Part shown: piece after piece, positions 2 to 25,122 of the stretch | How positions within the stretch are numbered: position 1 is the stretch's first letter | Layout: every line of letters begins with the position of its first letter | Virus record (IMG/VR): IMGVR_UViG_3300031772_000248 | Span: 1 to 25,831 of that record | Strand: one strand, 5' to 3' | DNA length: 25,831 nucleotides | Source: a virus | Notes under the pieces: generated by a model | Database searches by the model: none | What the model was told of the DNA's origin: nothing | What the model saw: only the letters and a program-made list of their open reading frames with translations | Position numbers and translations under genes: made by a program

Positions 2-2143
2 TGGGCCTGGGAGATGGAAGACGAGATTCACCAGGTCTGTCCCATCACGTATAATCACCTGTGGGACAATCCTCCGTGGCCTGAATTCAATCGCGTGTTG
101 TATGATTCTACCGACTTGATCAACTGCATCAACTGGCCCACCTATGAGATGGTTCACAAGAGGTTTCCTGATAAGACGCACTACGTGCCTCATGGGGTGC
201 CCAAGGAACTGTTCAAGCCCCTGCCGGCTGCCGACATAGCACGCTTCAAGCGCAGCTTGTTGGGCCCTGAGCGGGCTGATCACTTCATGGTCTTGTTTGT
301 CTCGCGGAACGCCCGCCGTAAGATGCCGAGCGACATTTTGGTCTCATGGCGCATGTTCCTAGAAGAACTGAAGGCCAAACACGGGCACGCCAAGGCAACA
401 TTCATCATGCATGCAGATCCTCTAGATCCAGAGGGCGCTAACTTGCACCACGTGATCGATGTGTTGCAGATCAAAGATAGTGTTGTTTTTTCAAAAGACA
501 GAGTGGGCTTTCCGGAGATGGTTGGCATCTACAACATGGTCGATGTTGTTGTCAATAGAAGTTGTTTTGCAGCTGGCACTCGAGTCGTGGTGAAAGATCG
601 TGGCTACGTTCCTATTGAGGAAGTTGCTATAGGTGATCAGGTGTTGACGCACAAGCGGCGCTGGAAGCCTGTCATCGATTTGATTAGGAATGACGGTCGC
701 TCGAAGCGCATGATCCAATTGAAAATCACAAATTCGAATCCAGTTCGATGTACAGATGATCATAAGTTGCTAGCGATCAAACGCCGCGATCTGCCGGCTA
801 ATTTCTTTTTCAACGTTCATGGTCAGACGTCACTCGACTATGCAAGATTGACACCAGCGTCAGAGCTTATGGAAGGTGACTACCTCGTCAGTTCATACGA
901 AGGACCAAAACTGAAACTTTCAGATATCACAATCACCCCTTGGGAACTTGTGAAAGATGACACGTATCTCAGAGCGGGTCACAAGTCGGTACCAACCTAC
1001 GAGAAAAACGACAACAGAATCATTTCTCGTATCATGATGCGATATGACCATGGTCCCGCTGAACTTAGTTTGACACAAGACGTTGCATACGTACTGGGAA
1101 ATTGGACAGCTGACGGAACAACACATTCAACCTCGATTTCTTTTGACAAGAAACATCCTGATCGTGTAGAAAAATACATCGAGGCAGTCAAGAATGGGTT
1201 TGGAATGGATTGCACTATCAATGAAAGAAAATCACATGTTGAAGTTTGCATGCGCAACGGTGCAGTCATGGCTAGAATGTTCATGTCTTTGTGTGGTAAA
1301 TACTCAACTGGCAAACATGTCCCAGAATGCATCTTGCATGCAAATGATGAATTGAAACGTGCGTATCTTGCTGGGTACCTTGCTGGTGATGGTTGTACGT
1401 TGAAACACCCACAGTACGGTCACTTCACCCATCGAATTAGAACGATCTCAAATTCAATTGCATTTGGCTTGCGCCACATTCTGGTAGATTTGGGATACGT
1501 TCCGAACGTATACGAAAGCAGCAACGCTCACGGCTATAACAAGGCGGGACGAATCTGGACTATTGAATGGAGAGACCGCGTTGGAAATCAGGCTGGCAAT
1601 GGCAGCTGCCGTTCGTGGAACATAAATGGTAACATCATCAGTCGTATTAACGGAATTCATGAATCAAATGCTGAAGATGTTGTTTATGACCTTACGGTCG
1701 ATGAAGACCACACATACATGGTTGAAAACGTTACAGTTTCAAACTGTAATGAGGGTTTCGGACTAGGAACCCTTGAGGCCATGATGTGTGGCAAGCCGAT
1801 CATTGCTCTGAAAACGGGCGGTCTAACGAGGCAAGTTGAGGACCCAGAGACAAAGGAGCAGTATGGTATTGCCATGGAACCCGAAGTGAAGTGTCTAGTG
1901 GGTAACCAGTTGGTACCGTACATTTTTGAGGATTTTGTCTCTCATGAGACGGTCGCCAAAGCATTCATGAAAATGTACGAAATGGGTCCTGAGGCCCGCG
2001 CTGAACTGGGTGCCAAAGCAATGGCGCACGCCCACAAGGATTACGACCTGCAGAACACAGTCAACAAGTGGGATGAAACACTGACAGAGTGCATTGAAAA
2101 TTGGCAAGGCCGACACCAACGTTGGTCCAACGAGGAACTGTGA
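2..2143 (+). CDS. GT4-like glycosyltransferase, 5'-truncated, interrupted by an intein
   Basis: Retaining GT-B (GT4-type) glycosyltransferase that would move a sugar from a nucleotide-sugar donor to an unknown acceptor. The reading frame is open to the window edge (codons before the ATG at 14 read WAWE), and only about 90 residues precede the inter-domain region, so the true start and most of the N-terminal Rossmann domain are probably upstream. Residues here are numbered from the ATG at 14. Visible: VPHGVP (the usual linker signature), VLFVSRNARRK at the start of the C-terminal domain, and the donor-site E-x7-E motif NEGFGLGTLEAMMCGKP. That motif is reached only after removal of an intein (residues 184-577). 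The spliced product from this ATG would be 315 residues (183 + 132). It is followed after 1 base by a second glycosyltransferase gene. The substrate is unknown. The family call is firm, the exact reaction is not. Confidence 0.85.
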   Translation, partial: WAWEMEDEIHQVCPITYNHLWDNPPWPEFNRVLYDSTDLINCINWPTYEMVHKRFPDKTHYVPHGVPKELFKPLPAADIARFKRSLLGPERADHFMVLFVSRNARRKMPSDILVSWRMFLEELKAKHGHAKATFIMHADPLDPEGANLHHVIDVLQIKDSVVFSKDRVGFPEMVGIYNMVDVVVNRSCFAAGTRVVVKDRGYVPIEEVAIGDQVLTHKRRWKPVIDLIRNDGRSKRMIQLKITNSNPVRCTDDHKLLAIKRRDLPANFFFNVHGQTSLDYARLTPASELMEGDYLVSSYEGPKLKLSDITITPWELVKDDTYLRAGHKSVPTYEKNDNRIISRIMMRYDHGPAELSLTQDVAYVLGNWTADGTTHSTSISFDKKHPDRVEKYIEAVKNGFGMDCTINERKSHVEVCMRNGAVMARMFMSLCGKYSTGKHVPECILHANDELKRAYLAGYLAGDGCTLKHPQYGHFTHRIRTISNSIAFGLRHILVDLGYVPNVYESSNAHGYNKAGRIWTIEWRDRVGNQAGNGSCRSWNINGNIISRINGIHESNAEDVVYDLTVDEDHTYMVENVTVSNCNEGFGLGTLEAMMCGKPIIALKTGGLTRQVEDPETKEQYGIAMEPEVKCLVGNQLVPYIFEDFVSHETVAKAFMKMYEMGPEARAELGAKAMAHAHKDYDLQNTVNKWDETLTECIENWQGRHQRWSNEEL
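563..1744 (+). mobile_element. Intein with LAGLIDADG (DOD) homing endonuclease domain
   Basis: A 394-residue in-frame insertion with the hallmarks of a self-splicing intein. Block A begins at Cys184 (CFAAGTRVVV). Block B carries the TxxH motif as CTDDH (residues 246-250). Block F is VYDLTVDEDHTYMV, and block G ends VTVSN followed by Cys578 as the +1 extein nucleophile. The middle holds two LAGLIDADG helices, VLGNWTADG (360-368) and LAGYLAGDG (452-460), each with its acidic residue, so the endonuclease looks intact. The insertion lies directly before the NEGFG motif of the host glycosyltransferase, so enzyme activity should depend on splicing. The penultimate residue is Ser rather than the common His. 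Hand counts of 60 bases give 38% GC inside (1141-1200) and 60% in the upstream extein (301-360), although other genes here are also AT-richer than that extein. Confidence 0.93.
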
Positions 2144-2144
2144 G

Positions 2145-3305
2145 ATGAAAACTGTAATTCTCAGGGGACCTGCCTTGACTCAGTCTGGTTATGGAGTTCA
2201 TTGTCGTCAAGTAGCTCGTTGGTTGCTAGCTCGGCCGGGTCTCGATGTCAAGTTTCACGTGTTGCCCTGGGGTGATACACCTTGGATCTTGAACGCTGAT
2301 TCACATGACGGTTTGATCGGTGAGATCACAAAAAGAACCGTCGACGGTTCGGCACGAGCTGATGTGTCATTTCAACTGCAATTGCCTAATGAATGGGATC
2401 CTAAGATTGCAACACACAACGTGGGCATGACAGCTGGTGTCGAAACAAACAGATGCAATCCTGACTGGATCACGGCATGTAATTCAATGTCACAAGTCAT
2501 CGTTCCATCTTCCCATGTCGCAGCCTCACTCGAGGCTACTGGGACTATCACCGTACCTGTGCACGTAGTGCCTGAGGCTTACATTGATGCAATTCAACTT
2601 CCGACTGAAAAATTGCCCACGTTGCCTGAATTTTCAACGCCATTTAATTTTTTGGTCTTTGGTCAATTGACAGGAAACAACCCACACAATGACAGGAAGA
2701 ACATATTTTTCACACTGAAGTGGCTCTGTGAAACGTTCAAAGATGATAAAGACGTAGGGATTGTCATCAAGACTAACATGGGTCGTAATACCAAGATCGA
2801 TCGCAACGTAGTCAAAGGAATGTTGCTGGGTGTACTAAATGAATGTCGCAAGGGTCCATATCCACGGGTTCATTTTTTGCACGGTGATATGAATGACATG
2901 GAGATCGCTTCCTTGTACCGACACCCACAGATCAAAGCGCTGGTTTCACTGACACGAGGCGAGGGTTTCGGTCTTCCAATTCTTGAAGCAGCAGCCTCAG
3001 GGTTGCCCATCATTGCGACGGGTTGGTCTGGTCACTTGGATTTTTTGAAACATGGAAAGTACGTCAGCGTCTATTACCAGCTAGCTGATGTGCATCCCTC
3101 GAGGATTGATGGAAAAATTTTCATGCAAGGCTCGCGGTGGGCAAATCCTTCTGAAGAAGACGCTAAAAAACGATTCATCAAATTCAGATCATCACCGTCA
3201 GTTCCCACAAGTTGGGCCCAAGAACTGGCCATGGCTGTCCGCGAGCCTTATGGATTTGAAAGCGTTGCACGACAATACGATGAACTGCTGAAAGGAATTC
3301 TATGA
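2145..3305 (+). CDS. GT4-like glycosyltransferase (no intein)
   Basis: A 386-residue GT-B glycosyltransferase. The N-terminus reads MKTVILRGPALTQSGYGVH, the glycine-rich first strand-loop of GT4 enzymes. The C-terminal half has FLVFGQLTGNNPHNDRKN, then the donor-site E-x7-E motif in RGEGFGLPILEAAASGLPI, and WSGHLDFL, which contacts the donor in relatives. It aligns by eye with the preceding gene but has Arg-Gly where that gene has Cys-Asn, and carries no intein. I chose the ATG at 2145 over an upstream in-frame ATG at 2094 because GAGGA lies 8 bases upstream of it, it directly follows the previous stop, and the extra 17 residues look unlike a GT start. Its stop overlaps the next start (ATGA). 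Acceptor unknown: DNA bases, virion proteins or host glycans are all possible. Confidence 0.85.
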   Translation: MKTVILRGPALTQSGYGVHCRQVARWLLARPGLDVKFHVLPWGDTPWILNADSHDGLIGEITKRTVDGSARADVSFQLQLPNEWDPKIATHNVGMTAGVETNRCNPDWITACNSMSQVIVPSSHVAASLEATGTITVPVHVVPEAYIDAIQLPTEKLPTLPEFSTPFNFLVFGQLTGNNPHNDRKNIFFTLKWLCETFKDDKDVGIVIKTNMGRNTKIDRNVVKGMLLGVLNECRKGPYPRVHFLHGDMNDMEIASLYRHPQIKALVSLTRGEGFGLPILEAAASGLPIIATGWSGHLDFLKHGKYVSVYYQLADVHPSRIDGKIFMQGSRWANPSEEDAKKRFIKFRSSPSVPTSWAQELAMAVREPYGFESVARQYDELLKGIL

Positions 3306-3616: not shown

Positions 3617-4426
3617 ATGGCATCGAGAAAAAAGAAGGTACCTGCACCGCCAGTTGAAGAAGTGCAGTTGTCACCTGAAGAAGAAGCGCTCCGCGCTGAA
3701 ACAAAAAGACTGGCCGATGAGGAGGCTGCAAAGAAAAAGGCAGCCCGCATGTACTTTAATGCCAACACCCAGGCGGCGATCTGTGCCTATCAAAAGGCTG
3801 ACGCTCGAAAAGAACGTGAACGTCTCTATGTCAAAGAGATCGCGCCGGCGTTCGAGAAGTTGACGGAAAACTTGATCAACATTCACAAGTTCACGTCACT
3901 TCATGATACGTACGACGATCTCAAAAATGACTGTGTCAATTTCTTGTTCGAAACGATTCACAAGTTTGATGGAAATCGTGGCACGAATGCTTTTTCATAT
4001 TTCAACGTTGTCGCCAAAAATTGGTTGATCATCAAGACAAAACAAAAGGCCCTCCGTGTCAAGCGTTCTGTCTCGCTCGATGATCCAGATGCACTCAATT
4101 CTCTGGAATCGAAAATTGTCGAAGAGTACTGCATTGTCCCGTCAGCAGAAACATTGCTCGAAAATGAATCGTTGCCAGGCAACGTGCTCAAGTTGCTCTA
4201 TGAAATTCGGAGCAAAGTGAAGACAGAAAATGAACTGGCGTGCATCAATTCTATCATCACCATCTTTGAAAATGTTGATGACGTCGACCTGCTCAACAAG
4301 AGCGCCATCCTGCTCTACATGCGTGAGCTGTCAGGGTTGAGTCCAAAACAGTTGACGACGACGATGCAGATGGTGAAGCGCCACTATAAGAAACTCAAAG
4401 TTGATCCCAAATTTAAGCTGTGGTGA
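3617..4426 (+). CDS. gp55-like phage RNA polymerase sigma factor
   Basis: A 269-residue protein that probably redirects host RNA polymerase to phage late promoters. A Lys/Glu-rich N-terminal extension (residues 1-45, likely helical) precedes the core. The stretch at about 104-142, containing ETIHKFDGNRGTNAFSYFNV and VAKNWLI, matches sigma-70 region 2 as it appears in T4 gp55 and cyanophage relatives: an amphipathic helix, a Lys-Phe-Asp turn, then an aromatic-rich helix. The C-terminus (MRELSGLSPKQLTTTMQMVK followed by RHYKKLK) resembles a helix-turn-helix or flap-binding tail. T4 gp55 is 185 residues, so this protein is longer, mainly at the N-terminus. The start is 6 bases after the previous stop with only a weak ribosome site. 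The alternative, a generic sigma-70-like protein of other function, cannot be excluded. Confidence 0.72.
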   Translation: MASRKKKVPAPPVEEVQLSPEEEALRAETKRLADEEAAKKKAARMYFNANTQAAICAYQKADARKERERLYVKEIAPAFEKLTENLINIHKFTSLHDTYDDLKNDCVNFLFETIHKFDGNRGTNAFSYFNVVAKNWLIIKTKQKALRVKRSVSLDDPDALNSLESKIVEEYCIVPSAETLLENESLPGNVLKLLYEIRSKVKTENELACINSIITIFENVDDVDLLNKSAILLYMRELSGLSPKQLTTTMQMVKRHYKKLKVDPKFKLW

Positions 4427-23871: not shown

Positions 23872-23887
23872 TCATGAATCTCGGGTG
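23835..23887 (-). other. back-to-back hairpins at the 3' end of the RNA ligase gene
   Basis: Hairpin A: GGCCTC (23835-23840), loop of three bases, GAGGCC (23844-23849). Hairpin B: CACCCGAGA (23850-23858), 20-base loop, TCTCGGGTG (23879-23887), a perfect 9-bp stem. Hairpin B starts on the base after A ends, so the two stems could stack coaxially. The ligase stop codon (23872-23874) lies in the loop of B. No T-run follows on either strand, so a classical intrinsic terminator is unlikely. An mRNA 3'-end stabiliser, processing site or attenuator is possible. Confidence 0.55.
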
Positions 23888-25122
23888 AGGGGTAATCGGT
23901 CCAATTTTGATAGAATGACGTCGAGGCTCGAGTTCGACAGCTTGCTGCCCTCGTACGTCTTCCTGATCCAATCCAAGGCATTTCGCGAACGATTTTCCCA
24001 GAGGTTGAAGTAAGGCGCCGTCCAGTCGCCTGACAGCATCACCTGTTCAGCGAATCGTTTCCGTGATGTTCCCGCTTCTTCACGGAACAGCGCCACGTTG
24101 GCATCGATGCTCTTGCAATACTTCAGAAAAGAATCCTGAATGTGCAACAACTTGTCACCGATGTCTTTCTCGACCAACGGTATCACGTCATCCAATTCGC
24201 CCAAGATGATGCATTCCAAGGCCGACCGTGGACTCACAGTCACCATGTCTTTGGCCCGTGAACTCATGACCCAGGCCTTGTTTTTGATCTTCAAGCGATT
24301 GAACTTAGAATCGACAACGACTGCTCCTTCGAGTTTAGCAGGATCGGCACAGTCAATGAACGTCACTAGCGCTGTCGGCTCACGGAGGCCCCACGTTTGG
24401 GGCCGACCCACGTGCTGCAAACGCAAGTCTTCAATTGAAACCTCACGGCCTGAGGCCGTGTGCCGCGCTGCCAACAGGTGAACACGTGGTTCATCGTATT
24501 TGACAACGACACGGTTGTGTGGACTGGTCAATTCGAAGACGTAAGTCAGTTCCTTATTGAGGTGGACAACTTTATCGAATCCATCAGGATTCCACCCTAG
24601 CTTCTGGCCAGAGCTCGCCTCGCGAGAGGCAATTAGTGCCTTGAAAAACAATCCTGAGAACGTCATGTCACCGATCTGCAGGTCGTCCTTACGGATCGGC
24701 AAGTCAGCCTCGGGCACCCCTCGCGTGGCAGCGTGCCACCGGTCCTGTGCGGGATCCCAATAGACAATGATGCAAGTCCCGTCGAGCTTCTCGTAGACGC
24801 GCAGGCCCGGGTCTGACCAGTCAATCATAGCCCCCGCGGGATCACCGTGATTATAAAATCGATTCATGGGCCAGGCCAAGAGTTCCACTTCACCTACACG
24901 AGCGTCCTTCCAATCGTCTTCGGGCAATCGTTTGGCCGGTCGGATCACCATGCCGCGGCACTGTTCCGCGATCAGGTCGCCATTTTTCACCAGGATTTGG
25001 TCGTAATTCAAGCTGAGTTTATCACCACCAGCACTCAACCGCGAACAGACACCGTGGTCGTCTTCTAGTTGTCGCAAAGAGTGCAAGCGCAGGTATTCGA
25101 TCACTAGAGGCTTCATCATCAT
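23872..25122 (-). CDS. T4 Rnl1-like RNA ligase
   Basis: A 416-residue ATP-dependent RNA ligase that would seal 5'-phosphate and 3'-hydroxyl RNA ends. Nucleotidyltransferase motifs appear in order: an N-terminal RGMVI segment (56-60), motif I EKLDGT with Lys112 as the AMP-accepting lysine, motif III/IIIa FELTSPHNRVVV (196-207), motif IV LEGAVVV with Glu265, and motif V LKIKNK with Lys278 and Lys280. T4 Rnl1 is 374 residues, so the C-terminal domain is somewhat longer. All key residues are present, so it should be active. Three successive ATGs begin the gene. AGGAG (25125-25129) is 2, 5 and 8 bases from them, so the second or third (25119 or 25116) may be the real start. Confidence 0.9.
   Translation of the reverse strand: MMMKPLVIEYLRLHSLRQLEDDHGVCSRLSAGGDKLSLNYDQILVKNGDLIAEQCRGMVIRPAKRLPEDDWKDARVGEVELLAWPMNRFYNHGDPAGAMIDWSDPGLRVYEKLDGTCIIVYWDPAQDRWHAATRGVPEADLPIRKDDLQIGDMTFSGLFFKALIASREASSGQKLGWNPDGFDKVVHLNKELTYVFELTSPHNRVVVKYDEPRVHLLAARHTASGREVSIEDLRLQHVGRPQTWGLREPTALVTFIDCADPAKLEGAVVVDSKFNRLKIKNKAWVMSSRAKDMVTVSPRSALECIILGELDDVIPLVEKDIGDKLLHIQDSFLKYCKSIDANVALFREEAGTSRKRFAEQVMLSGDWTAPYFNLWENRSRNALDWIRKTYEGSKLSNSSLDVILSKLDRLPLTRDS

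Follow-up and report, generated by a model that had tools for sequence, protein, structure and literature searches.

A predicted class 1 intein with a LAGLIDADG homing endonuclease domain in the donor motif of a phage GT4 glycosyltransferase

The DNA analyzed here (the window) is a metagenomic viral fragment of 25,831 nucleotides (IMG/VR record IMGVR_UViG_3300031772_000248), which opens on its plus strand with an uninterrupted reading frame of 713 codons (positions 2-2143), the 5' end of the gene being cut by the window edge. This frame consists of the N-terminal flank of a GT4 glycosyltransferase (N-extein, 2-562), delimited with uninterrupted homologues; a 394-residue insert (563-1744); and the C-terminal flank (C-extein, 1745-2143, stop codon included), which starts with Cys+1 (TGT at 1745). 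The insertion is in frame, between Ser and Cys of NRS/CNEGFG (the slash marks the insertion point), and the first Glu of the E-x7-E donor motif (EGFGLGTLE, 1751-1777, identified by alignment with homologues) is found two residues on. The initial annotation had placed an intein of 394 residues at 563-1744, and these coordinates proved exact; profiles, structure models, empty-site homologues, and five inteins at the same site all bear out the intein. It had called the junction Ser183/Cys578: the junction is right, but, the gene being cut by the window edge, the numbering runs from an internal ATG at position 14. A contig that is 99.98% identical to the window across 5.7 kb (L023) extends 2 kb farther upstream and adds 98 residues if translation begins at the ATG that corresponds to the starts of relatives. 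From this ATG, the precursor has 811 residues (285 + 394 + 132), and splicing would leave an enzyme of 417 residues instead of the approximately 315 first proposed. L016, L023, L040, and L052 are one and the same contig, possibly sampled in the same series as the window; L023 is thus not independent evidence. On L023 (872-4192), the frame of the upstream PD-(D/E)XK nuclease has no stop and enters the glycosyltransferase in frame, giving 1107 residues that include nuclease, glycosyltransferase, and intein; the stop which ends the nuclease frame after HCT in L003, L004, L005, L007, L008, and L010 is absent there. This open frame may be a true fusion or merely the result of a lost stop.

Directly downstream, a second GT4-type glycosyltransferase gene, assigned from profiles (2145-3305, plus strand), has no intein at the corresponding position (LTRGEGFGLP). 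In L002 (557-2977), the nearest relative of the window enzyme without an intein, the two adjoining glycosyltransferases are fused into a single frame of 807 residues, and in Flavobacterium phages of the genus Immutovirus, a relative of the enzyme has a PD-(D/E)XK nuclease and another glycosyltransferase as neighbours, which is also the arrangement seen here. Farther along, a T4 gp55-type late sigma factor (phrog_234; 3617-4426, plus strand) is followed by baseplate wedge genes, which assigns the window to a contractile-tailed T4-like phage. Near the other end, a homologue of the T4 RNA ligase 1/tail fibre attachment catalyst (phrog_562, E 2e-39; 23872-25122, minus strand) adjoins a plus-strand frame that runs from 25121 and carries a DFDDT phosphatase-like motif.

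The nature of the host enzyme is supported by several approaches. The C-terminal flank matches the Pfam families Glycos_transf_1 and Glyco_trans_1_4, and among PDB sequences a chlorovirus GT4 enzyme, B736L, comes closest. We also modeled an intein-less homologue that is 69% identical to the spliced window enzyme (L004). The model (pLDDT 75) adopts a GT-B fold, with Z scores of 31.8 to MshA, 29.2 to BaBshA, and 27.2 to PimA. On this model, the insertion point corresponds to S282/C283, in the loop linking strand 277-281 to the helix that starts at E285, and E285 is the first Glu of E-x7-E. Both Glu residues of this motif are invariant across 16 relatives, and after the predicted splicing the window enzyme would carry it as EGFGLGTLE. 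Hence, profiles, model, and homologues bear out the earlier proposal of a GT4 host interrupted two residues before the catalytic Glu of E-x7-E, and they support the prediction of the host protein as a GT4 glycosyltransferase.

The insert has the signatures of an intein. It is matched by the Pfam families LAGLIDADG_3 (E 3e-9) and Hint_2, by NCBIfam intein_Nterm, and by Pfam Intein_splicing with an E value of 2e-8 and 34.5 bits, slightly below the curated cut-off of 35.8 bits. All the class 1 nucleophiles are there, i.e., Cys1 (TGT, 563-565), the first-step splicing nucleophile, in block A (CFAAGTRV) and invariant among 40 relatives; the terminal Asn394 (AAC, 1742-1744) in block G (VTVSN, 1730-1744); and Cys+1. 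The assisting residues are also kept: in block B (TxxH, 734-772), aligned with relatives, Thr B:7 is T64 (752-754) and His B:10 is H67 (761-763), and in block F (VYDLTVDEDHTY, 1682-1717), which also contains H383, Asp F:4 is D376. Alignment and model place two LAGLIDADG helices at 1088-1117 (YVLGNWTADG) and 1364-1393 (YLAGYLAGDG), each ending in a predicted catalytic acidic residue (D184 and D276, respectively); these positions are Asp in all six same-site inteins, and the helices thus appear intact, as had been proposed. An AlphaFold2 model of the intein, built with an alignment of 39 relatives, reached a pLDDT of 88.7 and a pTM of 0.88. Foldseek related it to the TliVMA and PI-SceI inteins (E 2e-18), with Z scores of 27.9 for TliVMA (318 residues aligned, rmsd 4.3) and 21.8 for PI-SceI, PI-PfuI being likewise among the full-length matches; the splicing domain of the model superposes on that of Mtu RecA (Z 18.5, 131 residues aligned, rmsd 1.7), as expected of a Hint fold. 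The VMA inteins, which are the best structural matches (Z 22 and 28), share the same two-domain Hint and LAGLIDADG build. However, their host gene encodes an ATPase, their identity to the window intein is approximately 17-22% across the aligned residues, and PI-SceI has an extra DNA-recognition region that the window intein does not have. The initial annotation had named as a refutation any homologues in which the insert is a structural domain devoid of intein blocks; these were looked for and not found. From sequence and model, we therefore predict that 563-1744 encodes a class 1 intein, with a Hint domain split by a two-motif LAGLIDADG homing endonuclease, and the explanation as a whole, including its mobility, appears very probable to us.

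The same site exists in both empty and filled states. A scan for homologues recovered 21 loci, 20 of which are intein-less and aligned as a single continuous match of 942-960 nt, or nearly so; the closest empty homologue, L002, has 82% amino acid identity. The empty site mostly reads NRS/CNEGFGL, and NRS/VNEGFGL in L002. More broadly, residue +1 of the empty homologues can be C, V, S, A, or Y (observed at the insertion point of L002, L006, L007, L017, L019, and L020). With V, A, or Y at this position, an inserted intein would be unable to complete splicing, which may protect those alleles. Further GT4 inteins at this site were sought in viral contigs with a DNA-level scan for the pattern N-[CST]-x-E-G-F-G-[LF]-x-x-x-E, and five more contigs were found to carry a glycosyltransferase intein at the identical point (L026, L029, L041, L043, and L046), their full genes being taken from L056, L053, L055, L140, and L054, respectively. 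Many other matches of this viral scan correspond to an unrelated protein with NSGEGFGFNGFEG and were rejected. The five inteins share 27-39% identity with the window intein, and in a tree of 68 inteins, which included four of the five, these four and the window intein form one clade (support 98/96).

Within this group, the window intein differs in its splicing centre. The penultimate residue (G:6) is usually His, which is typical of class 1 inteins without being a defining feature, and in the window it is Ser393, a substitution that had been overlooked in the initial annotation, as had the truncation of the gene start. Among the 68 related inteins, G:6 is His in 64, Ser in three, and Tyr in one, and among the six same-site inteins only that of the window has Ser. 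This Ser is associated with Asp at F:4, whereas the five siblings combine Asn at F:4 with His at G:6; as judged from these alignments, the Asp/Ser pairing could possibly be a compensating exchange in the splicing centre. By analogy with published inteins, Ser393 would be compatible with splicing. Ser occupies G:6 in every class 2 intein, and these inteins splice (PMC4031507). The class 2 KlbA inteins share this penultimate Ser with the window intein (PMC4031507). They start at Ala1 and skip the first acyl shift, whereas the window intein has Cys1. In mycobacteriophage inteins (Kelley et al. 2016, PMC5050341), G:6 is variable, the native Gly of one intein supports splicing better than His does, and the penultimate residue can alter the splicing rate.

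Other inteins have reached the GT4 motif at other points. Among the best 80 intein relatives in viral contigs, we identified four more insertion sites in or beside this motif: YSN/SEGMG in L111; SETF/CCTSVEA in L108 and L122; EGWGLPL/CEAMA in L120; and GGGFE/CNALES in L089. Pfam glycosyltransferase families were found in L120, L089, and L108. For L111, the GT4 assignment rests on the motif, because Pfam matches its intein alone; a second scan with a glycosyltransferase motif pattern returned L111 again and nothing else. In L089 (1117-4671), two different inteins interrupt one viral GT4-like gene, one upstream (CYDEETRIL...VVSGN/S) and the second in the donor motif. All these inteins resemble that of the window in lying in or beside the E-x7-E of GT4-like proteins; their insertion points differ, however, and the tree gives no supported join to the same-site clade, with which they may share an origin. 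Phage terminases offer a precedent for an active centre with more than one insertion site (PMC5050341). Mycobacteriophage inteins of TerL, of a RecB-like nuclease, of TOPRIM, and of a methylase are, like the window intein, class 1 elements with homing nucleases beside catalytic motifs, with multiple sites per active centre and, in some of them, Gly, Lys, or Ser instead of the penultimate His (PMC5050341). The hosts named in the passages covered, including Table 1 to the extent displayed, are DNA packaging and nucleic-acid enzymes, and a glycosyltransferase is not among them (PMC5050341).

The distribution of the intein in the glycosyltransferase family suggests that it moves. In the extein tree, intein-bearing genes are scattered, with at least three gains or losses forced by well-supported branches, and the window gene is sister to the empty L002 inside a mostly empty group. 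Homing with repair is expected to copy some of the flanks too, and we looked for such a footprint. Within 10 codons on either side of the insertion, the window shares 77% nucleotide identity with the intein-bearing L053 (58% gene-wide) and 65% with the empty L002 (70% gene-wide). The contrast between intein-bearing and empty sequences at the site reaches a z of 3.4, exceeded at 0.3% of gene positions, and all 14 empty sequences used as controls stay at or below 1.75. The width of the footprint was explored: for half-widths between 6 and 20 codons, the share of positions as high ranges from 0.3 to 3.2%. The contrast drops when third codon positions are taken (z 2.2, with the empty control L019 reaching 2.3), and with the flanks of L140 alone, in contrast to L053, it is not significant (9% of positions as high). 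Close to the site, the third codon positions of L019, which is empty, resemble those of intein-bearing alleles (z 2.3-3.0), a likeness that may be due to chance or be the trace of a lost intein. Altogether, the footprint is suggestive of homing with co-conversion of the flanks. The catalytic Asp pair kept in all six inteins, the patchy distribution, and this footprint support the earlier suggestion that the intein may still be mobile.

We thus propose the following mechanism. A single precursor, 811 residues from the homologous ATG, would be translated; the Hint domain would excise the 394-residue intein and ligate Ser285 with Cys+1, so that a 417-residue GT4 enzyme regains its E-x7-E donor site. 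Once released, the intein would cleave intein-less alleles in related co-infecting phages and be copied into them during repair, along with a short flank; the empty site in close relatives, the patchy distribution, and the footprint in the flanks support this step. The element would be a site-specific selfish element of phage GT4 genes, targeting the codons of S/C-[NA]-E-G-F-G. The insertion site owes its conservation to that of the donor motif, which would make precise removal difficult and allow the target to persist. No role in regulating glycosylation is needed in this explanation.

Other explanations account for part of these observations. The intein could be an old, vertically inherited component of this glycosyltransferase family that underwent repeated precise losses, with no recent homing. 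Indeed, intein and extein identities increase together in the ten pairs compared, so old vertical inheritance with losses keeps some probability for the family as a whole. We nevertheless consider this explanation unlikely, since the genes around the window would by themselves call for no fewer than three or four independent exact losses, and the footprint at the insertion point favors transfer. As the window is a metagenomic fragment, we also considered whether assembly had artificially fused part of an intein with a glycosyltransferase gene. Such a chimera has practically no probability: the junctions are exact and in frame, the same arrangement is found on L023 (possibly from the same sample series), and the independent same-site inteins on five diverged contigs refute it.

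The altered splicing centre lends itself to two further explanations. On the one hand, slow or signal-dependent splicing could act as a post-translational switch of glycosylation late in infection, as the insertion blocks the donor motif, the Asp F:4 and Ser G:6 of the window differ from the Asn and His of its siblings, and the penultimate residue can shift the splicing rate in a phage intein (PMC5050341). We consider such a switch highly improbable: most close relatives of the enzyme have no intein, so the switch would be dispensable; an active-site insertion is expected for any homing element; and in the phage intein examined in that study, a non-His residue gave faster, not slower, splicing. 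Furthermore, our analysis of sequence, structure, and distribution found nothing pointing to a regulation of glycosylation by splicing, which the initial annotation had envisaged. On the other hand, the change from His to Ser, found in the window alone among the six same-site inteins, could mark the decay of a splicing-impaired relic in a glycosyltransferase that is being lost, while the second GT4 gene directly downstream covers its function. Yet the 394-codon frame is intact, all the other catalytic residues are kept, including both nuclease Asp residues, the exteins are intact with their E-x7-E, and the class 2 inteins, which are splicing-competent, have Ser at G:6 (PMC4031507); such a relic is hardly to be expected. 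A broader proposal would be that phage inteins generally settle in the GT4 donor motif, with five sites in or beside it, and at the same time that the Asp F:4 and Ser G:6 of the window time glycosyltransferase activation in infection; this combination seems very unlikely to us.

Phage inteins are reported mostly from genes of DNA metabolism and packaging, and as a rule these elements are found in catalytic motifs. A DNA-level search of the window against named phages gave no match. The hosts of named-phage inteins recovered by tblastn with the window, L053, L120, and L111 inteins include ribonucleotide reductase, DNA methylase, portal, DNA polymerase, and thymidylate synthase, among others; the unannotated matches, read by eye among the matches listed, are methylases, reductases, and one unassigned protein. 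Neither by annotation nor by reading the unannotated matches did we find a glycosyltransferase intein in 50,697 phage records, among the matches listed. In 84,980 cellular species genomes, the same-site intein pattern was not found, the sole match being an intein-less GT4 of an Opitutaceae bacterium, and in the open-access papers covered we found no description of an intein in a glycosyltransferase. Within this scope, the same-site inteins form a genuinely new intein allele family, a known kind of element at a new address. The six diverged same-site inteins, together with their natural empty alleles, are a good set to measure homing and to compare penultimate Ser and His, and they could also provide splicing domains for protein engineering. 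For phage biology, a sugar-transfer enzyme joins the genes that host inteins, and the same rule is extended to it: a conserved catalytic motif is targeted, at several sites per active centre, by elements that spread among phages.
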